In this document: positions 31,844 through 53,710 of the stretch, piece by piece
How positions within the stretch are numbered: position 1 is the first letter of the stretch
Layout: every line of letters starts with the position of its first letter
Assembly (NCBI GenBank): GCA_030262725.1
Contig: JAJSZS010000001.1
Location: 62,001 to 126,000, forward strand
DNA from: Candidatus Desulfofervidus auxilii
GTDB taxonomy: Bacteria; Desulfobacterota; Desulfofervidia; Desulfofervidales; Desulfofervidaceae
Direction: 5' to 3'
DNA: 64,000 nucleotides
The notes under the pieces: model-generated
The model's input: only the letters and a program-made list of their open reading frames with translations
The model's database searches: none
What the model was told of the DNA's origin: nothing
Translations under genes and position numbers: made by a program

Positions 31844-32644
31844 TTATTCTTCTCTTTCTAAAATAAATTCAGGATTTTCTTCAATCTCTCTTAAAGTTTC
31901 TATTATTTGATCAAATGTTTCATTAAAATCAAAGATATCTCTTTCTCTCTTATGAGGATTGGCATAGGATAAAATTTGATTGTAAAGAAATGGATGAAAT
32001 TTTCCCATTTCCTTAGCCTTTTGTACAATGTCTTTTAAAATTTGATTTGCTTCTAAAATTTTTTCTGCCCTTTTATTCCTTTCTCTAAATGCTTCTTTTA
32101 GTGGTAAGTCCAAGAATAAATCACATTTTTTTAAAATACTTTCAAAAGAAGAACCAGCAAGTTTTTCTGTATTTTTATAGGCAATACCTAAAGTAACATA
32201 ATAGCCTTGTTCAATGGCATCAATTATTTCTGGATCATTTTCTGCCATTTCAGGTTCTTTTTGTAAAATTTCTTCATAAACTTGAAGAGCAACATAGGAT
32301 TTTTCTCTAATATTAAGTTCCTTTTCAATATTAAAATTCATCATCAATTTTGCCATCTTTTTTGGAACAATAATAGCTGGTATTTTTTCAAGTTCTAATT
32401 CTTTTGCTGCTAAAAATCTATGTTGTCCGTCAATGATTACATATTTTCCTTTTTTATCTCCCTCAACTACCATAATCGGGACAGTGAATCCAATCTTTCT
32501 TAAAGATTGTAAAAGGTGTTTTACATGATATTGAGATGGCTTTCTTTGATGAGAAATAACTTCAAGAGAATCTAATGGAAGGAGGGTAAAAATAAACCTT
32601 TCCCCCTTAAGTGGCTCTTTATATTCAAACTTTTTCTCTGACAT
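31844..32644 (-). CDS. ParB/Srx-like N-terminal-domain protein
   Basis: The N-terminal third of this 266-residue product resembles the ParB/sulfiredoxin-like fold: HVKHLLQSLRKIGFTVPIMV and the hallmark VIDGQHRFLAAKELELEKIPA (G-x-H-R). Members of this superfamily bind or hydrolyse CTP/ATP or cut DNA. The C-terminal part is helical and unassigned. There is no ParA partner and no parS-like repeat nearby, so a chromosome-partition role is unlikely. It lies beside a HEPN/MNT pair but seems to have its own promoter. Confidence 0.75.
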   Translation of the reverse strand: MSEKKFEYKEPLKGERFIFTLLPLDSLEVISHQRKPSQYHVKHLLQSLRKIGFTVPIMVVEGDKKGKYVIIDGQHRFLAAKELELEKIPAIIVPKKMAKLMMNFNIEKELNIREKSYVALQVYEEILQKEPEMAENDPEIIDAIEQGYYVTLGIAYKNTEKLAGSSFESILKKCDLFLDLPLKEAFRERNKRAEKILEANQILKDIVQKAKEMGKFHPFLYNQILSYANPHKRERDIFDFNETFDQIIETLREIEENPEFILEREE

Positions 32645-32691: not shown

Positions 32692-33108
32692 TTAATCTTT
32701 TATCTTGATAATTTTTGAGGCAACTTCAACTATTTTTTTAGCCCCTTCAATGGCTCTTAATGCATCTTCTTTTGTATATTCTTCAGTAGGTATAAAATCA
32801 ATATCACCATAAAAGGAAAGCTCTCTTTCTTTTCTTAACCATTTTGAAATTTGAGCAAGCTCTGAAAGAATAGGTTGTATTTCTTTAGGAAACTTCTCTT
32901 TATTATCAAGGATTATCATTCCAACATCATGCCATTTAGGAGGATCTATTCCAACTTGTCTTAACATTGCTTTTTGTGCCAATTCAACGATTTCTTGTGC
33001 TTCTCTAATTACATCTGAATAATCTTCCTCTTCTAAAAGCACCTGAAGTATTTTTAATCTTTTTTGAGCCTTTATTAAATAGCTTTGAGCTAAACTTACA
33101 TTGGTCAT
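32692..33108 (-). CDS. HEPN-domain protein
   Basis: The 138-residue all-helical product matches the HEPN domain: IREAQEIVELAQKAML, then KWHDVG and the C-terminal ALRAIEGAKKIVEVASKII. HEPN proteins are often RNases paired with minimal nucleotidyltransferases. The usual R-x(4-6)-H ribonuclease motif is not evident: the nearest Arg-His pair (RQVGIDPPKWH) has nine residues between. Its start overlaps the stop of the MNT gene by four bases. Confidence 0.85.
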   Translation of the reverse strand: MTNVSLAQSYLIKAQKRLKILQVLLEEEDYSDVIREAQEIVELAQKAMLRQVGIDPPKWHDVGMIILDNKEKFPKEIQPILSELAQISKWLRKERELSFYGDIDFIPTEEYTKEDALRAIEGAKKIVEVASKIIKIKD

Positions 33109-33602
33109 ATATCTATTATATCGCCTACTTTATAATCTGGTTTTAATACCCAATACCATGCATTGCCTTTAAAAATGCGTTTTGCTCCAATTTTTTTAAG
33201 CTTTTCTTTTAAAGAAAAAAGAAAATTTTTAAAAAAATCATCTTTATCATAAAGTATTTTTGCATCAAAAACCATGTCCAAAAAAAGCCAACTGCCTCTT
33301 AAAACTTCTTCCTTTGTTTTAAAAATAGGCGAAAAATAAGGATATACACCTTTTTTATACAATGCCTTTAATTCAAATTCTAATTTTCTTTCTATATTTT
33401 TCTCAAATTCTTCTACTCTTTTCACTCTACCTTTAGGCAATTTTTCAGCTACAATCAAAATATCAATATCAGAGTCTGGTCTAAAACTATCCCTTGCCAC
33501 AGAACCAAATATAACAAAACTAACAAGCCTATTTTGATAATATACTTTAGAAAGTTCTAAAGCTTTTTTAACTAAATCCTGATATATCTTCTTATAAGAC
33601 AT
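33105..33602 (-). CDS. Minimal nucleotidyltransferase (MNT) domain protein
   Basis: The 165-residue product has the polymerase-beta type nucleotidyltransferase signature G-S-x-A-R-x(6)-S-D-I-D-I (FGSVARDSFRPDSDIDILIV) at about residues 31-50. It is the expected partner of HEPN proteins in type VII-like toxin-antitoxin modules, in which the MNT protein adenylylates the HEPN toxin. It is the first gene of the pair. Confidence 0.9.
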   Translation of the reverse strand: MSYKKIYQDLVKKALELSKVYYQNRLVSFVIFGSVARDSFRPDSDIDILIVAEKLPKGRVKRVEEFEKNIERKLEFELKALYKKGVYPYFSPIFKTKEEVLRGSWLFLDMVFDAKILYDKDDFFKNFLFSLKEKLKKIGAKRIFKGNAWYWVLKPDYKVGDIIDI

Positions 33603-35218: not shown

Positions 35219-35860
35219 TTACTTTCTATAAAAAATATTTAAAGAAATATTTTTTAATTTACTTTCTTCCACACCTTTTAAAGGGATTACCATTGCTTTG
35301 ATTACCTGTGAGAAGAATTTACGCAAAAATGGATTTAAAGGAATAGATATACCATTTACAAGAAGTCTTATATCTTCTTTTTTGGATTTTTTTAAAAAGG
35401 TTTCTTCTATAAAGTCAGTAATAGCTTTTATATTTTCTAAATTAAATTGAGGAATGTTGAATTCTAATGGTTCATCTGTCACTAAAGCAATGACACCTTT
35501 TGCACAAAACAATTTGTATCCTTTCCTATGTACTTCTATTTTAGGAAACTTACTAGTTTTTAACCCTTCAATCAAAACAATATCTACATCATTTAAAAGT
35601 CTATAAGCTTCCTCAATAATAGAATCTTTTAAATTTTTTATTAAAACAATTTTTTCTTCTGAAGCAAGGATAACAGTATCTGTGCCTATTTGAGTATATC
35701 GCCAAGAGTCTTTGCCCTCTTTATCCAAAGAAAAACCTTTAGCTGCATGTTTTAATACGCCTACTTTATAACCTCTTTGTTTTAAATTTACTACTAATTT
35801 TTCTATAATAGTAGTTTTACCTACACCATTAGGTCCAATAAAACAGACAAAAGGCACCAT
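35219..35860 (-). CDS. mobB: Molybdopterin-guanine dinucleotide biosynthesis protein B
   Basis: A 213-residue GTP-binding adapter for molybdenum/tungsten cofactor maturation. Walker A is GPNGVGKTT, followed by GVLKHAAKGF and the MobB segment VLIEGLKTSKFPKIEV. An AAGGAGGT Shine-Dalgarno precedes the ATG. It is divergent from mobA and the formate dehydrogenase genes, fitting a cofactor supply role. Confidence 0.93.
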   Translation of the reverse strand: MVPFVCFIGPNGVGKTTIIEKLVVNLKQRGYKVGVLKHAAKGFSLDKEGKDSWRYTQIGTDTVILASEEKIVLIKNLKDSIIEEAYRLLNDVDIVLIEGLKTSKFPKIEVHRKGYKLFCAKGVIALVTDEPLEFNIPQFNLENIKAITDFIEETFLKKSKKEDIRLLVNGISIPLNPFLRKFFSQVIKAMVIPLKGVEESKLKNISLNIFYRK

Positions 35861-35894
35861 TTTTTACCTCCTTCTTTTAGTACATGATGTCTGA

Positions 35895-35923
35895 TTGTCT
35901 GTCAATTAATTCTATGTTAAACT
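35895..35923 (+). promoter_or_regulatory. Promoter, predicted leaderless, for mobA-fdhA-fdhB-fdhE
   Basis: TTGTCT at 35895-35900, a 17-base spacer ending in TGT, and TAAACT at 35918-35923 (extended -10). The ATG at 35929 is five bases later. Confidence 0.45.
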
Positions 35924-35928
35924 TGGAC

Positions 35929-36543
35929 ATGACAAGTATTATTTTAAGTGGTGGGAAAGGTTCACGTTTTGGTTCTCATAAAGGACTTATAAAAATTGGT
36001 GGTATTCCTATTATTGAAAGAATCTTAAAAATACTAAATCAATTTAGCAAAGAAATTATTATTGTTACAAATGAACCTTTACTTTATTCTTATCTTGAAG
36101 TAAGGATTGTAGTGGATATTATTCCATTTAAAGGCCCATTAGGAGGTATTTATACAGGTCTTTTTTATACTAATTTTTTTCCTGCTTTTATTGTTGCTTC
36201 TGATATGCCTTTTATATCTAAAGAAGTTGTTTCTTATCTTATTTCTCAATGGGAGGAAAATTTAGATATTTTAATACCTGCTGATGATAAAGGCTATCAT
36301 CCTCTTTTTGCCCTTTATGGAAAAAGATGTCAGGATATTTTTAAGCAAAAATTGTTAAAAGATAATTTAAGTGTTCATAAGGCAATTAAATATTTAAAGA
36401 AAAAGGTAATTCCCATTTCTGTTCTCAATCAAATAGACCCTACTGGTAAATCTTTTTTTAATTTAAATACTCCTGAAGATTTAAAAATAGCAGAGTTATT
36501 TGAGGAGGAAAAATATGGAATTGAATCGAAGAGAATTTATTAA
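35929..36543 (+). CDS. mobA: Molybdenum cofactor guanylyltransferase MobA
   Basis: Attaches GMP to molybdopterin, making the MGD cofactor that formate dehydrogenase needs. The 204-residue product begins MTSIILSGGKGSRFG, with the nucleotide-binding G-G-x-G-S-R-x-G-x-x-K. The segments PFKGPLGGIYTGL and ASDMPFIS follow, and it ends in NLNTPEDL. Upstream ATGs at 35884 and 35914 fall within the probable promoter. Its end overlaps the fdhA start by 29 bases. Confidence 0.93.
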   Translation: MTSIILSGGKGSRFGSHKGLIKIGGIPIIERILKILNQFSKEIIIVTNEPLLYSYLEVRIVVDIIPFKGPLGGIYTGLFYTNFFPAFIVASDMPFISKEVVSYLISQWEENLDILIPADDKGYHPLFALYGKRCQDIFKQKLLKDNLSVHKAIKYLKKKVIPISVLNQIDPTGKSFFNLNTPEDLKIAELFEEEKYGIESKRIY

Positions 36544-39538
36544 ACTTTCAGGGGCAGCAATAGCTAGTATAGCTTTAGGTAATCTTGGTTTTAATTTAAG
36601 AGAAGCCTATAGTCATTCACAGGTATTAAAAATTAGAATGGCTAAAGAGACAACTACAATTTGTCCTTATTGTGCTGTAGGATGTGGTATTATCTGCCAT
36701 ACAGATTTGGTTACTAAAAAGGTAATTAATACAGAAGGTGACCCAGACCATCCTATTAATGAAGGAGCACTTTGTGCAAAAGGAGCAGCTCTTTTCCAAT
36801 TAATTAATAATCCCAATAGGATAACTAAACCACTTTATCGTGCTCCTTATAGTGATAAATGGCAAGAAGTGACCTGGGAATGGGCATTAGAAAAGATTGC
36901 TAGGTGTGTGAAAGAAACAAGAGATAGATTTTTTATTATAAAAAATGAAAAAGGACAAATAGTAAATCGAATTGAAGCTATTGCCCATGTTGGTAGTGCT
37001 GCATTAGATAATGAGGAATGCTGGCTTATTCAAGCTATGATGCGTGCTTTAGGTTTAGTTTATATCGAACATCAAGCACGTATCTGACACAGTGCTACTG
37101 TAGCGGCTCTGGCAGAGTCGTTTGGACGTGGTGCAATGACAAATCATTGGATTGATATTAAAAATGCTGATGTAATTCTTATTATGGGAAGTAATCCGGC
37201 TGAAAATCACCCCATTTCTTTTAAATGGATAATGGAGGCTAAAAAGAATGGTGCAATTGTTATTCATGTAGATCCAAGATTTACTAGAACCTCTTCCAAA
37301 GCAGATTTTTGGACATATCTTCGTCCTGGCACAGATATCGCTTTTTTAGGTGGTATGATTAATTTCATTATTGAAAATGAAAAATATTTTAAAGAATATA
37401 TAAAAGAATATACCAATGCCTGTTTTATTGTAAATGAGAAGTATGATTTTAATGATGGTCTATTTGCTGGCTATGACCCAAAGACTAAAACATATGATAA
37501 ATCATACTGGGCTTTTGAAAAGGATTATAGAGGCGTCCCTAAAAGGGATAGAAGTTTGAGACATCCTAGATGTGTTTTTCAACTCCTCAAAAAACATTTT
37601 TCCCGTTATACTTTAGATAAAGTTTCTTCTATTACTGGTACTCCTAAAGAAGATTTAAAAAAAGTTTATGAAATTTATGCCTCTACTGGAAAGAGAGATA
37701 AGGCTGGAACAATTATGTATGCTATGGGTTTGACACAACATACTACTGGTGTTCAGACTGTTAGAGCAATAGCAATTATTCAACTACTTTTAGGCAATAT
37801 TGGTATAGCAGGTGGTGGTGTTAATGCATTGCGTGGCGAATCTAATGTACAAGGTTCAACTGATCACAGCATACTTTATCATATTTGGCCTGGTTATCTT
37901 AAGGCAGCTCGTGCCTCTTTGCAAACATTAGAGGCATATAACAAAAAGTTTACTCCAAAAAGCAATGATCCAATGAGTGCCAATTGGTGGCAAAATTATC
38001 CTAAATATAGTATTAGCTTACTTAAAGCCATTTTTGGAGAAAAAGCAAATAAAGATAATGATTTTGGTTATAATTGGTTACCAAAATTAGATGATAATAA
38101 AGATTATTCTTGGTTAACTCTATTTAATGAGATGTATAAAGGTAAAATTAAAGGTTTTTTTGCTTGGGGACAAAATCCTGCCTGTAGTGGTGCTAATGCC
38201 AATAAGAATAGAAAAGCTTTAGCAAATTTAGATTGGTTAGTTAATGTTAATATATTTGAAAATGAAACAGGTTCTTTTTGGAAAGGGCCAGGGATGAATC
38301 CAAAGGATATTAAGACAGAGGTTTTCTTTTTACCTTGTGCTGTTTCAGCGGAAAAGGAAGGTAGTGTCACTAACAGTGGTCGCTTAATGCAATGGAGATA
38401 TAGAGCAGTTGAACCTCCATGTGGAGTAAAAACAGATGGTGAAATTATTGTTGAGCTTATGAAAAAAATACGTGAGCTTTATAATAAAGAAGGTGGAGTA
38501 TTTCCAGAGCCTATTTTAAATCTCAATTGGCCTAATAAATATGATCCACATTGGGTAGCTAAATTGATTAATGGTTATTTTACAAAAGATATTACAATAA
38601 AAGGAAAAAAATTTAGAAATGGTGAATTAATACCAGATTTTACATACCTTCAGGCAGATGGTTCTACTTGTTCAGGTAATTGGCTTTATTGTGGTAGCTA
38701 TACAGAAAAAGGTAACATGGCAGCTAGAAGAGATAGAACTCAAACAGAAATGCAGAAAAGAATTGGACTTTTTCCTAATTGGGCATGGTGTTGGCCAGTT
38801 AATAGGCGCATCCTTTATAATCGTGCTTCAGTAGATAAAAAAGGGCAACCTTGGAATCCAGTCAAAGCAGTAATTAAATGGACAGGTGAAAAATGGATTG
38901 GAGATGTGCCAGATGGTGAATGGCCACCTCTTTCTTATGGTAAGAAATCCCGTTATCCATTTATTATGAAGATAGAAGGTCATGCCCATATCTTTGGCAT
39001 TGATTTAATAGATGGCCCATTTCCAGAATATTATGAACCATTAGAGTGTCCCATTGAGAAAAATATTATGTCATCTCAAAGAATAAATCCTACTATTAAA
39101 CTTTATCAAACCAATCTTGATAAATTCTGTACTTGTAATTTGAAATATCCTTTTGTTGCTACTACATATCGTATAACTGAGCATTGGCAAACAGGTGTTT
39201 TAACTAGATGGCAGCCTTGGCTTTTAGAGACACATCCACAACAATTTGTAGAAATAAGTGAAGAATTGGCAAAACTAAGAGGGATTAAAAATGGTGATAA
39301 AGTAATTGTTGAATCAGTAAGAGGAAAAATAGAAGCAGTTGCTATTGTAACAAAAAGATTACGTCCATTTAAAATTGCCGATAGAATTATACATGTAGTG
39401 GGATTGCCTTGGTGTTTTGGTTGGTTAGTGCCTAAAGATGCTGGTGATAGCTCAAATATATTAACACCAAGTGTTGGTGATCCAAATACACTCATTCCAG
39501 AAACAAAAGCGTTTATGGTTGATGTGAGAAAGGTATAA
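36515..39538 (+). CDS. fdhA: Formate dehydrogenase catalytic subunit, selenoprotein (TGA = Sec)
   Basis: A molybdenum or tungsten bis-MGD enzyme oxidising formate, 1007 residues when the in-frame TGA at 37085-37087 is read as selenocysteine (residue 191). The ATG at 36515 follows TTGAGGAGGAAAAAT. A twin-arginine signal (NRREFIKLSG) implies periplasmic export with its partner. The [4Fe-4S] motif CPYCAVGC...C is at about 51-85. The residues around the TGA (EHQARI, then HSATVAALAESFGRG) match the FdnG-type active site. Both halves lie in one frame and a hairpin follows the TGA. It would otherwise be mis-annotated as two proteins. Confidence 0.96.
37104..37120 (+). promoter_or_regulatory. Bacterial SECIS-like hairpin
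   Basis: CGGCTCT, loop GGC, AGAGTCG: seven pairs including one G-U, beginning 16 bases after the TGA. Its loop has a GG start and lies about 23 bases past the codon, which fits the known bacterial SECIS geometry for SelB recruitment. Confidence 0.75.
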
Positions 39539-39549
39539 AGGAGAAAAGG

Positions 39550-40239
39550 ATGGGGAAGGCATTTTTTATAGACACAAGTAAATGTATAGCCTGTAGAGGC
39601 TGCCAGATTGCCTGTAAAGAGTGGCATGGATTGCCTGCTACAAAAACAGAACAATGGGGAAGCTATCAAAATCCAAAAGACTTAAACTTTTATACATATA
39701 AATTGGTGCGTTTTAGCGAGTATGAAAAAAATGGCAAACCAGTATGGTATTTTTTCCCAGACCAATGTCGGCATTGTATTGATCCACCATGTAAAAATAT
39801 TGCGGATAGTTATGTAAAAGGGGCTGTTGTTATAGATAATGAAACTGGAGCAGTTATTTATAATTTAGAATTAATAAAAAAGGTGCCTTTTGATGAGATT
39901 AGAGAAGCTTGCCCTTATAATATACCTCGTCAAGACAAAAAGACAGGTATGATTTCAAAGTGTGATATGTGTATTGATCGAATAAAAGCAGGTTTATTAC
40001 CAATGTGTGTAAAGAGCTGTCCTACTGGGGCAATGAATTTTGGAGAAAGAGAAGAAATGTTAGACTTAGCAAAGAAACGGTTAAAAGAATTAAAAAAGGA
40101 TTATCCAAAGGCACAGCTTATTGATATAGATGCTGTTAGAGTAATTTATTTAGTATTAGATGAACCTATGCTTTATCATGAATTTGCTATAGCAAGCTTA
40201 AAAAAGACTTTTTATCAAAATGCAAAAAATTTTAAATAG
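39550..40239 (+). CDS. fdhB: Formate dehydrogenase iron-sulfur subunit
   Basis: The 229-residue electron-transfer subunit has four cysteine clusters: CIACRGCQIAC, CRHCIDPPC, the partial C-P-Y group, and CDMCIDRIK...CVKSCPTGA, giving four [4Fe-4S] centres. It begins 11 bases after fdhA behind AAAGGAGAAAAGG. There is no C-terminal membrane anchor and no gamma (cytochrome b) gene, so the pair resembles the soluble periplasmic FdhAB of sulfate reducers that feed cytochrome c3. Confidence 0.95.
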   Translation: MGKAFFIDTSKCIACRGCQIACKEWHGLPATKTEQWGSYQNPKDLNFYTYKLVRFSEYEKNGKPVWYFFPDQCRHCIDPPCKNIADSYVKGAVVIDNETGAVIYNLELIKKVPFDEIREACPYNIPRQDKKTGMISKCDMCIDRIKAGLLPMCVKSCPTGAMNFGEREEMLDLAKKRLKELKKDYPKAQLIDIDAVRVIYLVLDEPMLYHEFAIASLKKTFYQNAKNFK

Positions 40240-40990
40240 ATTAGAAAATTTAAAAAAGAAGTATCCTATATATAACAATTTTTTTGATTTTTATGGTAAG
40301 ATATTAATAACTCGTAAAAATTTTTCTAAACCTAAAATTGAAAGAAATCTGAAAATAAATGAGGAATTTCCTCTTTTAGAAAATTTTAAAATAGACCTGG
40401 AACATGCTCAAGGGCTTTTTTTTGTTCTTTGTCAAAATTTAAAAGATATTAAAGAGATTAAATCTAAAATAGAAAAAATAGAAAATTATTATTTAAAGCA
40501 TCCTCATGAATTAAAAAAAATTTTTAAAGATTTTTTAAAAAAAGGAATAGATAATTTTTTGTTAAAATTTCTTATCTTTCATAGTTTAAAACCTTCTCTA
40601 GAAGAATGCATGAAAATAGTGAAAGATAAAATAAAAGATATAAACTGGATAAAAGGATGTTGTCCTATATGTGGTCATTATCCATATATGGCTATTTTAA
40701 AAAAAGATGGGAAAAGGTTTGTAAAGTGCGCTTTTTGTAGTTATGAATGGCAAATTGAGCGTATTTTTTGTCCTTTTTGTGGCCAGAAAAATCATGAAAA
40801 AATAAAATATTTTGAGGTGGAAAAAGAGCCAGGTTATAGAGTATATGTATGTGATGAATGTAAGCGATATTTAAAAACTGTGGATGAAACTATGATTGAA
40901 AATGTAGCTGACTTAGAATTGGTGGATGTGGCTACCCTTTACTTGGATGTCCTTGCGAGGGAAAAGGGGTATAAAAACTATTTTAGTTAA
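40220..40990 (+). CDS. fdhE: FdhE-like formate dehydrogenase accessory protein
   Basis: The 256-residue protein has paired C-x-x-C rubredoxin-like motifs in its C-terminal half (CPICGHYP, CAFCSYEW, CPFCG, CDECKRY), as in FdhE, which assists maturation of respiratory formate dehydrogenases. The N-terminal helical half is weakly conserved. It overlaps fdhB by 20 bases. fdhD is not in the window. Confidence 0.9.
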   Translation: MQKILNRLENLKKKYPIYNNFFDFYGKILITRKNFSKPKIERNLKINEEFPLLENFKIDLEHAQGLFFVLCQNLKDIKEIKSKIEKIENYYLKHPHELKKIFKDFLKKGIDNFLLKFLIFHSLKPSLEECMKIVKDKIKDINWIKGCCPICGHYPYMAILKKDGKRFVKCAFCSYEWQIERIFCPFCGQKNHEKIKYFEVEKEPGYRVYVCDECKRYLKTVDETMIENVADLELVDVATLYLDVLAREKGYKNYFS

Positions 40991-41552
40991 AGTGGCTGTT
41001 ATACCATCTATTTTGTTTTAACAAGATGTAAAGTGCCTCGTCTATAGAAAGTAAAGTATTTTCTGCTTCTTTCACATCAAAGTTTTTATTAAATGCCTTA
41101 GTTTCAAGTTTTTGTTTGTAATTATGTTTTAAATATCCATCTTTTGTCATAAGACCAATATTATTTCCTTCCACAAAAAAGACAAATCTCTTTTTATAAT
41201 CACCAAAAAGACTTTTTCCTACCGCAGTATATGGTGCTTTTATATTTAAAAGTTCTATTATGGTTGGAATTAGATCTGCCTGAGAGCCCAAATAATTTAT
41301 CTTTCTATGAGAAAAGAGTTTTGGTGAATAGATAACCAATGGAATCCAAAATCTATCTCGCAAGTCATTTCCCTGAAATCGTCCCAGGGTGTGGTCTGCG
41401 GTAAAGATAAAGACTGTATTTTCAAACCAATCGGTCTTTTTTGCTGCTTTCATGAATTCTCCAATGGACCAGTCTGCATAATAAAGGGTATTTAAAAAGC
41501 CTTCTAAAGACTCTGGTGCATGAGGGTATTTTTCAAATCTTTTATCTAGCAA
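40983..41552 (-). CDS. C-terminal fragment of a frameshifted alkaline-phosphatase/LTA-synthase-like enzyme
   Basis: The 189 residues hold the second half of a sulfatase-fold catalytic domain, including the metal-binding FTADHTLGRFQGND and FWIPLVIYSP. It follows on from the upstream frame: adding one base in the A7 run at 41581-41587 (T7 on the coding strand) would join FFAFF to FSGTTHPPY and LLDKRFEKYP. It has no plausible start of its own. The last gene of the YcaO-HD operon, its end overlaps fdhE by eight bases convergently. Confidence 0.8.
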   Translation of the reverse strand: MLDKRFEKYPHAPESLEGFLNTLYYADWSIGEFMKAAKKTDWFENTVFIFTADHTLGRFQGNDLRDRFWIPLVIYSPKLFSHRKINYLGSQADLIPTIIELLNIKAPYTAVGKSLFGDYKKRFVFFVEGNNIGLMTKDGYLKHNYKQKLETKAFNKNFDVKEAENTLLSIDEALYILLKQNRWYNSHFN

Positions 41553-42898
41553 TATATAAGGTGGATGAGTAGTGCCTGAGAAAAAAAGGCAAAAAATGGT
41601 TCTTTTATTTCATCCAGTCTTTCTTTTAAAAACATCAATCCTTCATAGTCGTAACCAAAGGCAGGTTCTTTATCTGTCATGTATCTCTGTCGCATGGGTA
41701 TATCTTCCTTTCCATAAAATTCCTCAAAACCTAAAGCAGCAGCAATACCTTCCATTCTAAAAGACCGTCTCTTTGAGGTCTGTACAAAAATGGTAGAATA
41801 TCCATAATCCTTCAAAATCTTCCCCAGTCTTGTTATGTCAACTATCTCAAGTCCTTTGCCTAGATAAGGTAGACCAGGTAAAGTAGGAATTCCCACTAAG
41901 ATAGCAGCAATGCCTTCTATACTCCTTTGGCCATTGGCATAAAAATTTAAAAACATCAGACCATTTTTTGCTATCTTATCAAAGTTTGGGGTTACACCAT
42001 AATGAGATTGTGAAAAGCTATCAATGAATTTAGCACTCCAACTCTCGAGCAAAAAGAATACTATGTTATATCTACTAGCAGTTATAAAAAATTTCTTTTT
42101 CATCCTCATTAAGGGATAATTTTCATTAATGATAATTTCATCTTTTTCTACTATATATTGCTGGGACAATTTTATCGCTTCAGTTTCATCATAAAAGTTA
42201 TGGTTTATGTACTTTGTGCTTCTCAAAGTATGATAGGCAGTGAAAACACCATTTAAGACAAGGTTCCCATATTCGGTTTTTCCATATTTGAAAGCATCTA
42301 TGACATTGATAGGTTTGCCATGAAACTGAAACGTGCCCCTTATTGAGAAGACAAGAAAAACAATGAGCAAAAATAGTCTTATTAATTCAGCACTAAAACG
42401 AATCTTTTGTGTTGAATAGTGTTTATTAATGAAACGGTAGATCCATAACAATAAAAAGATTAAAAAAATTATCAAAATAATCAAATGCAGCAGATATTGC
42501 TCATATATATGAGTTAGAAGATAATCAATATCATTCATAATGAGAACAGCTTCTGCTCCAATGTGTCTTTTTACATAACCAAAAAACACAATATCGATTG
42601 TTAAGATACAGGCTATGATAAAAAGTTCTATCAATACCAATAATGACCAAAATCTGTACCAGCTTTTTCTTAAAATAGGTAGGTTTATCATTAAAAGAAG
42701 CATGCCAAGGAAAGTAGCAAAGGTACACAGGTCAAACCTAAGCCCATCCACAAAAGCCATCAGGAACTGTCTAAAATTTAAAGGACTAAATATATCTCTA
42801 TAAATAAAAAGAAGGAAAAGCCTTGCTGTAAGAAATGTTCCTAAACCTAACGCCAGCAATAAAAGAGAAAGCCTAAGCCTAAAATCAAACCACCTCAT
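41546..42898 (-). CDS. N-terminal fragment of the frameshifted LTA-synthase-like membrane phosphatase
   Basis: The 450 residues comprise about five membrane helices (first 165 residues) and the first half of a sulfatase-fold domain (NIVFFLLESWSAKFID; GQRSIEGIAAIL; GYSTIFVQTSKRR). This is the layout of lipoteichoic-acid-synthase or phosphoethanolamine-transferase-like proteins. It ends in a non-homologous tail (SQALLIHLIYC) after a one-base frame change at a seven-A run. In a diderm an envelope glycan or lipid head-group transferase is the likeliest role. It overlaps the HD gene by 14 bases. Confidence 0.82.
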   Translation of the reverse strand: MRWFDFRLRLSLLLLALGLGTFLTARLFLLFIYRDIFSPLNFRQFLMAFVDGLRFDLCTFATFLGMLLLMINLPILRKSWYRFWSLLVLIELFIIACILTIDIVFFGYVKRHIGAEAVLIMNDIDYLLTHIYEQYLLHLIILIIFLIFLLLWIYRFINKHYSTQKIRFSAELIRLFLLIVFLVFSIRGTFQFHGKPINVIDAFKYGKTEYGNLVLNGVFTAYHTLRSTKYINHNFYDETEAIKLSQQYIVEKDEIIINENYPLMRMKKKFFITASRYNIVFFLLESWSAKFIDSFSQSHYGVTPNFDKIAKNGLMFLNFYANGQRSIEGIAAILVGIPTLPGLPYLGKGLEIVDITRLGKILKDYGYSTIFVQTSKRRSFRMEGIAAALGFEEFYGKEDIPMRQRYMTDKEPAFGYDYEGLMFLKERLDEIKEPFFAFFSQALLIHLIYC

Positions 42899-43655
42899 TG
42901 ATTTTTTTCTCTAAATATTTTTCAAGATAAATTTTGATTTTTTTAATATCATCTGTTTTTGGTAAGAAATTAATAAGCTTTTCTATATAGCGCCTTTGTT
43001 TGATATAACGATATGTAGGTGTAAAGTTAATATCAAATAGCCAGCTTAATTGCATAAGTTTCATATCATTTGTGGTTTGCATAAGGCTTAAATCTGAAAT
43101 ACGGGAACTTAAAATATCCTCTATAATTTTTTTTGAATAGTCATTCCTTTCAGGCAATTCTAATTCAATGACAGGGTTGTAATGAGCATTTTCATAATAT
43201 TTAATAAAGACATAAAAAATGTCTAATTTATCTGCATCTCTTATTAATTTAGAATAAAATAAACATTCTGAATCTTCATTTTTTGGTAAAATGCGTTTGT
43301 TATGATAAGCAATAGCCTTACAAATTAATTTTTTTTCTCTTTTTGAAATACCTTTAAGTATTTTATTCAATTGCAATATTTTAACACTTAAAAGTGCATG
43401 ATTTACAGATTTGGCATCCCTGAATGTGCCATATTTATAAAATTGTTCAAATCGACCTAAATCATGAAAAAGTGCAATAGTTTGAGCTAGATAAAGTTTT
43501 TCTTTATCAAGCTTTAAATCTTTTCCTATCTGAATGATATTTTTACATACACGATAAGTATGTTCTTTTTTTAATTTTATATTTTCATTATTGCCAAATT
43601 GTTTCACATAATTCTTAAACCAATTATGAAAAAAGAGAATATCTTTATAATTCAC
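42885..43655 (-). CDS. HD-domain phosphohydrolase
   Basis: The 256-residue product has the metal-binding H...HD...D order of the HD superfamily: an early His (EHTYRVCKNI), ALFHDLGRFEQF, CKAIAYHNKR and RDADKLDIFYVF. The family cleaves phosphate esters, often of nucleotides or signalling molecules; the substrate is unknown. Overlapping its upstream (YcaO) neighbour by four bases and the phosphatase gene by 14 puts it firmly in one operon. Confidence 0.85.
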   Translation of the reverse strand: MNYKDILFFHNWFKNYVKQFGNNENIKLKKEHTYRVCKNIIQIGKDLKLDKEKLYLAQTIALFHDLGRFEQFYKYGTFRDAKSVNHALLSVKILQLNKILKGISKREKKLICKAIAYHNKRILPKNEDSECLFYSKLIRDADKLDIFYVFIKYYENAHYNPVIELELPERNDYSKKIIEDILSSRISDLSLMQTTNDMKLMQLSWLFDINFTPTYRYIKQRRYIEKLINFLPKTDDIKKIKIYLEKYLEKKINEVV

Positions 43656-45376
43656 TTTTGGACAATTCTTAAATAGTTTTTGAATAATCTTTTGTTAAAA
43701 CTGGAATACCTATCTAAGTCAGGTAACATTTCTAAGCCTGGTACTATTGTCCTTATAACAGGAATATCTAAGTCTTCTTTTGTTAAATTTACATAAATTG
43801 GATGAAAACCATTCATCAACAATAATTTTTCTAACATCCATAAATCCTTATTTACATCTCCTGAAGAATAATTTGGAAGTTCTTCATATTTTTTTATTTG
43901 AACTCCATCTGTTAAAGGTATTGTTGAATAATCTCCATATAAAAAATATCTACAGGTTAATTCACATAATGCCCTATTAATAGCAATCTTTCCATTTAGA
44001 TGTGCTCCCCAACCTCTTGAAATTCCACCTCTTTTATGTATAAAAAAGGCTCTGTAACAAGGAATTCCCAATTCAGTTGTTAAATCTAAAAAATATATAT
44101 GTACACCCCTTTTCCTCCAAGCATCTAAAATATTGCTAATAATTGGGTCTTTTGCTTCTAATAAAAAACATCTATCTAATGAAAATAAACTGACTTTTTC
44201 TGAATCTCTCTCTATATATTCCAATAAAGCAGTAAGTTTTGCTTCTTCTATTGTATTTCCTGAAGCTAAACCATTTGTAGAAGTGCCTTGACTATAAATA
44301 TCTATCTCATCAAAATTTCCTGAAGAAATAAGAAAGGCAAATTGTGCTGGTATATAAATCTCATGACTGCCCATTTCATCAACTTCTTCTGCAATAATCC
44401 AATATAGCTCTTGGTTTTCATAAGGGATTTCAAGATTCATTTTATTTGGATCTAAAACATGATATCCTTTTTCTATTAAATCACTATATCTAGCTTTAAT
44501 TAATTTAAATTCCTTTTTATAACCAATAGACTTGTTATTAGAAAAGTTTGCTAAAGCTGAATATCTTTCTACTATTTCCATTAAAGCAGAAGCCCTTGCC
44601 GCATCTTCACTAAAACCTTTTCCATATTCTCCCAAGATTCCCCAAAGTGTCCAATTGTTTTTCCCTACAGATATCTCTATCCGAAAATTCCAATTCCTTA
44701 TAAAGGCATAAGGACTAATAGAACATGTTAGTTTTATTTCATCATCAAGCAATAATTCTTGAATTTTTGGATTTTTTAAAAGTCTATTTACAGTTTCTTT
44801 TGGATCCATACTTCTTACAGCTGTTCCTGTATTAAATGATTTTCCTTCTGTTCCTGAATATACATCCTTAATATGAACCATTTTTTTATCTTCAATAAGA
44901 CTATTTAAATCATAAGGTATAGGAAACTTTATATTATTTAAAGATGGTAAACTCTCATGCATATATTTATTTTTTGCAAATATATCCATCCAAAAACAAC
45001 GAGTATCAAGATTTTCACTTAAAGACCATCTTATATAGATTAAAGGTGTATGCTTAGCTAAGATTTTTTTATCTATATCATTAAATTTTTTTCTTAAATT
45101 AAAAAATTTATTATAACAGATACAAATTTCATAAAAACATGCCAATGATAATAAATCATCTTTTTTCTTTGCTTCTTCTATTAATTCATCAAGTTCATTT
45201 TCACTGAGTTTCACTAATTGATATAATAAATATTTATGCATAAATTTATCATTAGGATGAATATGAAGATATTCAAGAATTTCTTTAATAGATATTTCTC
45301 TAACAGGTACAATAGAAAGAAGGTCAAAACCAGTACTGAGAGTTAATTGCGCTTTATAAGTTATTTTCTTAATCAT
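43652..45376 (-). CDS. YcaO-domain protein with helical N-terminal extension
   Basis: The 574-residue product has a YcaO ATP-binding domain over roughly the last 400 residues. Its signature motifs include FSEDAARASALMEIVERYSA, LASGNTIEEAKLTALLEYIE and AINRALCELTCRYF. YcaO enzymes activate backbone amides with ATP, making azolines or thioamides. No TfuA or RiPP precursor lies nearby, and the C-terminus lacks the Pro-rich tail of azoline-forming cyclodehydratases. The N-terminal 150 residues look TPR-like. ATG 45376 is preferred to the TTG at 45388, which abuts a -10-like TATAAT. Confidence 0.85.
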   Translation of the reverse strand: MIKKITYKAQLTLSTGFDLLSIVPVREISIKEILEYLHIHPNDKFMHKYLLYQLVKLSENELDELIEEAKKKDDLLSLACFYEICICYNKFFNLRKKFNDIDKKILAKHTPLIYIRWSLSENLDTRCFWMDIFAKNKYMHESLPSLNNIKFPIPYDLNSLIEDKKMVHIKDVYSGTEGKSFNTGTAVRSMDPKETVNRLLKNPKIQELLLDDEIKLTCSISPYAFIRNWNFRIEISVGKNNWTLWGILGEYGKGFSEDAARASALMEIVERYSALANFSNNKSIGYKKEFKLIKARYSDLIEKGYHVLDPNKMNLEIPYENQELYWIIAEEVDEMGSHEIYIPAQFAFLISSGNFDEIDIYSQGTSTNGLASGNTIEEAKLTALLEYIERDSEKVSLFSLDRCFLLEAKDPIISNILDAWRKRGVHIYFLDLTTELGIPCYRAFFIHKRGGISRGWGAHLNGKIAINRALCELTCRYFLYGDYSTIPLTDGVQIKKYEELPNYSSGDVNKDLWMLEKLLLMNGFHPIYVNLTKEDLDIPVIRTIVPGLEMLPDLDRYSSFNKRLFKNYLRIVQK

Positions 45377-45389
45377 ATTTTTAAACAAA

Positions 45390-52732: not shown

Positions 52733-53710
52733 TTAAGTAAAAGAAAAAGTAGCTTTATTTAATAAATCTTTAAGAAATATTGCCCCTAAAAAATGATTTT
52801 TTTCATTAACAACACCTAAAACATCTAACCCTTTTTGACGCATAAGTTCTAAAGCATCAATAGCTGGTGTTTTTGGAGAAATGGTTTCTACTTTAATACA
52901 GACTTCCTTTACATACATTTTTGCTACTTTCTCTTTCTCAATAAACAATTTTGCTTTTACATTATTATCTATTAATCCTTGTAGTTGTTGTCGTTTTACT
53001 ACCCAGAGAAATTCATTTTTTACCAATTGTGGGAAAATGGATTTTATTTTCATACTAGGTTTTATAAGCAAAAGATTATCTGTCTTTTGCATAAGATCCT
53101 CTACTTTTGGTCCTAACTTTTTTCCTAAATGTCCTGCAGGATGAAAACGACGAAAATCTTCTGCAGTAAAACGCCTTCTTTCAAGTAAAACTACAGCTAA
53201 AGCATCTCCCATAGCCAAAGCAGCTGTTGTACTAGCTGTTGGTGCGAGTCCTAAAGGACAGGCCTCTCTTTTTACTCCTGTATCAATTACAATATCACTA
53301 TGCTTTGCTAAAGTAGAATTAGGATTGCCAGTAAGAGCAATAAGTGGCGCACCTAAACGTTTAAAACTAGGAATAAGGATAGTAATTTCACCAGTTTCAC
53401 CACTATTAGAAATAGCTAAAATAATATCTTTTTTTGTTACCATACCTAAATCACCATGCATTGCCTCTACAGGATGTAAAAAAAGAGCAGGAGTACCAGT
53501 ACTATTTAAAGTAGCAACAATCTTTCTTCCTATGATGCCTGATTTACCTACTCCTGTAACAATCACCCGACCATCAGTTTTAAGAATAATTTCTACTGCC
53601 TTAGCAAATTCTGGCCCAAGTTTATCAATAATACCTAAGATACCTTCAGCCTCTATTTTTAAAACTTCTTTTGCCCTTCTTAAGATATCCTTAATCTCTT
53701 TATTTTTCAT
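52733..53710 (-). CDS. kdsD: D-arabinose 5-phosphate isomerase (KdsD/KpsF)
   Basis: Makes arabinose-5-phosphate for KDO of lipopolysaccharide. The 325-residue product has an N-terminal SIS domain (VIVTGVGKSGIIGRKIVATL; FLHPVEAMHGDLGMV; ISNSGETGEI) and two C-terminal CBS domains (about 205-322). Full family length. Its start overlaps the last base of the purF stop. Evidence that the host is an LPS-bearing diderm. Confidence 0.96.
   Translation of the reverse strand: MKNKEIKDILRRAKEVLKIEAEGILGIIDKLGPEFAKAVEIILKTDGRVIVTGVGKSGIIGRKIVATLNSTGTPALFLHPVEAMHGDLGMVTKKDIILAISNSGETGEITILIPSFKRLGAPLIALTGNPNSTLAKHSDIVIDTGVKREACPLGLAPTASTTAALAMGDALAVVLLERRRFTAEDFRRFHPAGHLGKKLGPKVEDLMQKTDNLLLIKPSMKIKSIFPQLVKNEFLWVVKRQQLQGLIDNNVKAKLFIEKEKVAKMYVKEVCIKVETISPKTPAIDALELMRQKGLDVLGVVNEKNHFLGAIFLKDLLNKATFSFT

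Follow-up and report, generated by a model that had tools for sequence, protein, structure and literature searches.

The recoding of UGA by SelB, acting with Sec-tRNASec and a hairpin directly 3' of the codon, is an established mechanism in bacteria, and among the most widespread families of bacterial selenoproteins the formate dehydrogenase alpha subunit FdhA heads the list (PMC9312934). An earlier survey likewise recorded FdhA in 67 of 75 selenocysteine (Sec)-using organisms (PMC1794560). In the Desulfovibrio vulgaris enzyme the active site includes U192, H193 and R441, with regulatory cysteines at C845 and C872 (PMC11323313). The in-frame TGA of the formate dehydrogenase gene presented below is almost certainly read as Sec, a well-known arrangement with no novelty in itself; it causes little surprise, since of all bacterial selenoproteins FdhA is described as the most widespread. 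Here, we compare with these systems a locus in the window (the whole stretch of 64,000 nucleotides that was analysed), in which the following features were identified.

35219..35860, minus strand: mobB, MGD cofactor biosynthesis (TIGR00176, 128 bits, above cut-off)
35884..36543, plus strand: mobA-like molybdenum cofactor guanylyltransferase (PRK00317.1-3, 141 bits, below the cut-off of 164)
36503..36508, plus strand: AGGAGG, 6 bases before the ATG of fdhA, a probable Shine-Dalgarno sequence (direct reading)
36515..39538, plus strand: fdhA, predicted Sec-containing formate dehydrogenase alpha subunit, 1007 aa, Sec191 (TIGR01553; W-FdhA structures)
37085..37087, plus strand: in-frame TGA, predicted Sec codon 191 (opposite a residue printed X, Sec, in 1h0h)
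37102..37122, plus strand: SECIS-type hairpin of nine pairs, GGC loop at 37111-37113 (RNAfold; codon conservation)
39550..40239, plus strand: fdhB, short-type 4Fe-4S beta subunit, 229 aa (match to D. vulgaris FdhB)
40220..40990, plus strand: fdhE-like formate dehydrogenase accessory protein with a diverged N-terminal part (Pfam FdhE_central and FdhE_C)

With a probability of about 98%, we read this locus as the fdhA of a periplasmic, Sec-containing Mo/W formate dehydrogenase (FdhAB), in which UGA 191 is read as Sec by means of SelA, SelD, SelB and the hairpin; Sec insertion, the metal, export and activity are what we infer from sequence.

A single fdhA frame with a TGA at the active site

When the region is called with translation table 11, two ORFs are returned, at 36500-37087 (195 aa) and 37136-39538 (800 aa), just as the original prediction had expected of a naive annotation. 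Direct reading confirmed that both lie in one frame, the sole stop within 36515-39535 being the TGA at 37085-37087, which is codon 191 of the 1007 in the read-through frame 36515-39538. The annotation is accordingly to be corrected from two called ORFs to one selenoprotein gene. The whole window was also scanned for same-frame ORF pairs parted by one TGA. One further pair was found, at 53142, and was rejected as a second recoded gene, being the antisense shadow of a coding ORF at 52733-53710.

The joined protein matches TIGR01553 (formate dehydrogenase-N alpha) with 1520.4 bits over residues 3-1006 and model positions 2-1009 of 1009, well above the curated equivalog cut-off of 814.2 bits, and is collinear from end to end with the alpha subunits of both FDH-N and W-FDH enzymes. 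Its scores against individual structures are 1466 bits for the W-FdhA of D. vulgaris Hildenborough (W/Sec FdhAB; 6sdr, 8cm4), 1462 bits for the W-FDH of D. gigas (1h0h) and only 974 bits for E. coli FdnG (FDH-N, 1kqf). The last of these shares with the window protein the TIGR01553 equivalog, an equivalent Sec position and a Tat-type N-terminus (NRREFIKLSG in the window FdhA). The original prediction, which had pointed to an FdnG-type active site, can be refined in that the protein stands nearer to Desulfovibrio FdhAB, which is soluble and periplasmic, than to the membrane-bound FdnGHI of E. coli.

The correspondence extends to the residues around the metal site. The TGA falls where a Sec or Cys metal ligand had been predicted, aligning with the crystallographic Sec of D. 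gigas 1h0h (EHQARIUHSATVAALAES in the window FdhA versus EHQARIXHSATVAALAES in 1h0h, where X is selenocysteine) and also with the Sec of the D. vulgaris FdhA structures. A 4Fe-4S cysteine motif (C50, C53, C57 and C87) is followed by U191-H192 and R440, the counterparts of D. vulgaris U192, H193 and R441, so that Sec, the following His and the catalytic Arg are all shared with the Desulfovibrio enzymes. The D. vulgaris cysteine pair C845/C872 similarly corresponds to C845/C874 in the window protein, the match of C872 to C874 being read from the alignment. Unlike the D. vulgaris and D. gigas genes, the window gene is AT-rich, is found in Desulfofervidaceae and has its start overlapped by the mobA-like gene; the metal of its product may be either W or Mo.

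Codon 191 in homologues and the selenocysteine machinery

Relatives of fdhA were collected by a contig search, which gave 80 loci, and by a second search of 39 genomes chosen by kinship. The three closest loci, at 79-80% identity, are titled Candidatus Desulfofervidaceae. Of 94 sequences aligned by codon, among them the window's own, 90 have TGA at codon 191 and four have TGC, and none has a residue other than Sec or Cys at this position or lacks a residue there; relatives missing it, which would have spoken against the original prediction, did not appear among the homologues examined. A wider set counted by motif gave 102 loci with TGA and five with TGC, with some loci present in both searches and three loci without a motif match left out.

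These counts bear on the possibility that a sequencing error or a true nonsense mutation produced the TGA, leaving a pseudogene or a Cys gene. A single TGA-to-TGC substitution would indeed yield a Cys enzyme, of the kind encoded by the four homologues with TGC. However, the same TGA recurs in 90 of the 94 sequences, in many independent genomes and across phyla, and the remainder of the window frame is intact at 79-80% identity to relatives in the same family. Together with the freezing of the hairpin codons described below, this makes an error or a pseudogene extremely improbable.

A reading of UGA as Sec also depends on the host possessing the Sec machinery. We searched the host genome (a Candidatus Desulfofervidaceae bacterium; 2.27 Mb in 72 contigs, 99.99% complete) and found all four components whose absence would have counted against the prediction: SelA (638 bits), SelB (392 bits, model positions 1-580 of 581), SelD (385 bits), which has an in-frame TGA of its own in an ASGUAAK motif, and the selC tRNA-Sec (77 bits), to which ARAGORN assigns the anticodon TCA.

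A TGA codon might instead be read as another amino acid, such as Trp, or Cys if a selC*-type tRNA-Cys decodes it, through general or local recoding that involves no selenocysteine. Relatives in the same family do carry selC*-like tRNA-Cys genes, some of them adjoining a second SelB-like gene. Yet these tRNAs have a GCA anticodon and not UCA, the top tRNA-Sec candidate of the host has the anticodon TCA, and a profile search of the host genome found one SelB above cut-off and no second. Moreover, the equivalent residue in a solved homologue is Sec, and general reassignment of TGA predicts in-frame TGA codons in many genes, whereas the window scan produced one credible case. We consider recoding to a different amino acid to have hardly any probability.

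Under the preferred reading of UGA 191 as Sec, SelA would make Sec-tRNASec(UCA) with selenophosphate supplied by SelD, and SelB bound to the hairpin at 37102-37122 would deliver it at UGA 191. The resulting 1007-aa apoprotein would take up the bis-MGD cofactor, for which mobA and mobB lie adjacent, together with a 4Fe-4S cluster, with Sec191 as a metal ligand beside His192 and Arg440. FdhA would then probably be exported by Tat together with FdhB, and FdhAB would be expected to interconvert formate and CO2.

A frozen hairpin 3' of the TGA

The hairpin reads CGGCTCT-GGC-AGAGTCG at 37104-37120, 16 bases 3' of the TGA, and is lengthened by RNAfold to nine pairs at 37102-37122; its GGC loop begins 23 nt after the UGA. 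According to Zhang and Gladyshev, a bacterial SECIS reportedly takes the form of a hairpin 3' of the UGA whose apical loop opens with one or more Gs, and the hairpin at 37102-37122 has both features. At the Rfam gathering thresholds, a search of the window returned two tRNAs only and no SECIS match.

Much of the original description of a SECIS-like hairpin has stood, namely its position and its GGC loop, to which we can add a strong constraint at the nucleotide level; folding energy alone is weak evidence, and we rejected it as an argument, since the energy is within chance (z -1.2), being matched by 25 of 200 shuffles. The constraint was measured as excess synonymous codon identity, that is, codon identity above the expectation from each gene's own codon usage. 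Among the 90 TGA-bearing sequences this excess is 0.563 for codons 197-204, as against 0.054 elsewhere in the gene (sd 0.039, maximum 0.200, 497 windows), which puts the hairpin some 13 sd above the remainder of the gene in the freezing of its synonymous sites. Codons 197-202 (37103-37120) read GCG GCT CTG GCA GAG TCG, each being found in 77 to 89 of the 90 sequences, and these frozen codons span Desulfobacterota, Nitrospirota and the window's own lineage. In an fdhA with a third-position GC of 18%, CTG is one of 72 Leu codons and TCG one of 45 Ser codons, and both of these single occurrences lie inside the hairpin. Two pairs show compensatory changes, in an alignment too conserved for this to carry much weight; covariation is scarce because the hairpin sequence hardly varies. 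The frozen synonymous codons and the unique CTG and TCG support the view that the hairpin at 37102-37122 is probably a working SECIS.

Among the four Cys homologues, the hairpin sequence is lost in L077, has one change in L034 and is retained in L053 and L070. Its full or nearly full retention in three of them is the pattern expected of a recent Sec-to-Cys change, and SECIS-like remnants after Cys codons, as well as repeated Sec-to-Cys changes in FdhA, have been described before (PMC1794560). Two of these loci were each found together with a Sec (TGA) copy of fdhA in a single MAG, L034 with L065 and L053 with L052, the Cys (TGC) copies still retaining the SECIS sequence wholly or for the most part.

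Across phyla, this group of genes shares an almost invariant block, GCGGCTCTGGCAGAGTCG, whose loop is GG(C/G); three more distant homologues (L115, L116 and L120) carry GCCGGTCTGGC in its place. The SECIS of E. coli fdhF has a GGU loop. Like that element, the window hairpin lies directly 3' of the UGA within the coding sequence and has a G-rich apical loop; it differs from the E. coli element in its GG(C/G) loop, which counts as a point against the preferred reading, in its nine-pair stem and in the position of its loop, about 5 nt beyond that of GGU in the 3' direction. The GCCGGTCTGGC of the three distant homologues resembles the E. coli GGU type. It is conceivable, if somewhat doubtful, that GCGGCTCTGGCAGAGTCG with its GG(C/G) loop forms a SECIS subclass of its own in sulfate reducers and Nitrospirota, unlike the E. 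coli GGU type in register and loop, in which SelB would read sequence and not shape only. That distinct classes of bacterial SECIS may exist has already been suggested (PMC9312934; PMC12013277), and a hairpin frozen across phyla provides a useful data set for defining them.

Gene neighbourhood, relatives and other loci in the window

The genes flanking fdhA resemble those of a soluble periplasmic FdhAB operon more than FdnGHI, as judged by the short FdhB and by the fdhE-like, mobA and mobB neighbours. FdhB matches the 236-aa FdhB of D. vulgaris (6sdr_B) with 280 bits over residues 1-220 and E. coli FdnH with only 151 bits, and it is short and without a membrane anchor, as is characteristic of soluble periplasmic FdhAB. 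ORF calls and profile searches found no cytochrome b (gamma subunit) gene adjacent to fdhA, so that the locus has neither the gamma nor the long beta subunit that accompany E. coli FdnG. The fdhE-like protein scores 58.7 bits against TIGR01562, under the cut-off of 187.65, while its Pfam FdhE_central and FdhE_C domains are both above their cut-offs. Upstream, the mobA-like gene runs with its 3' end into the start of fdhA, and mobB is oriented divergently from mobA. As annotated from sequence, this set of putative neighbours (mobB, mobA, fdhB and the fdhE-like gene) fits a D. vulgaris-like periplasmic FdhAB operon. The locus leaves known biology unchanged, and adds to the Desulfofervidaceae lineage a predicted periplasmic formate dehydrogenase and with it a possible link to formate in metabolism.

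In three relatives (G002, G003 and G004) we observed a second SelB-like protein (303-325 bits to TIGR00475) adjoining a selC-like RNA gene (at L149, L148 and L147, respectively). ARAGORN reports tRNA-Cys(GCA) for the RNA gene in L147 and L148, with which that of L149 aligns closely. This pairing matches the selC*/selB* arrangement published by Mukai et al. (2017), as reviewed in PMC7609411. A further member of the family, the single-contig G001, possesses tRNA-Sec(TCA), SelB and a SelD that contains a TGA, as well as a selC*-like tRNA-Cys(GCA), with no second SelB above cut-off (loci L133, L137, L145 and L150). Neither a SelA match nor a full-length FdhA came out of a search of this genome, for which masked sequence or a diverged SelA may account.

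Elsewhere in the window, a gene at 43652-45388 on the minus strand encodes a stand-alone YcaO-domain protein of 578 aa, whose C-terminal half bears the domain; genes for an HD-domain protein (42885-43655) and for a sulfatase-like membrane protein (41546-42898) appear to belong to the same operon. The sulfatase-like gene (40983-42898, minus strand) appears to be in two ORFs, 41546-42898 and 40983-41552, which overlap by a few bases, through either an assembly frameshift or a real break. Finally, overlapping HEPN and nucleotidyltransferase (MNT-like) ORFs at 32692-33602 on the minus strand look like a HEPN/MNT toxin-antitoxin-type pair, and adjoin a gene for a ParB_N-domain protein at 31844-32644.
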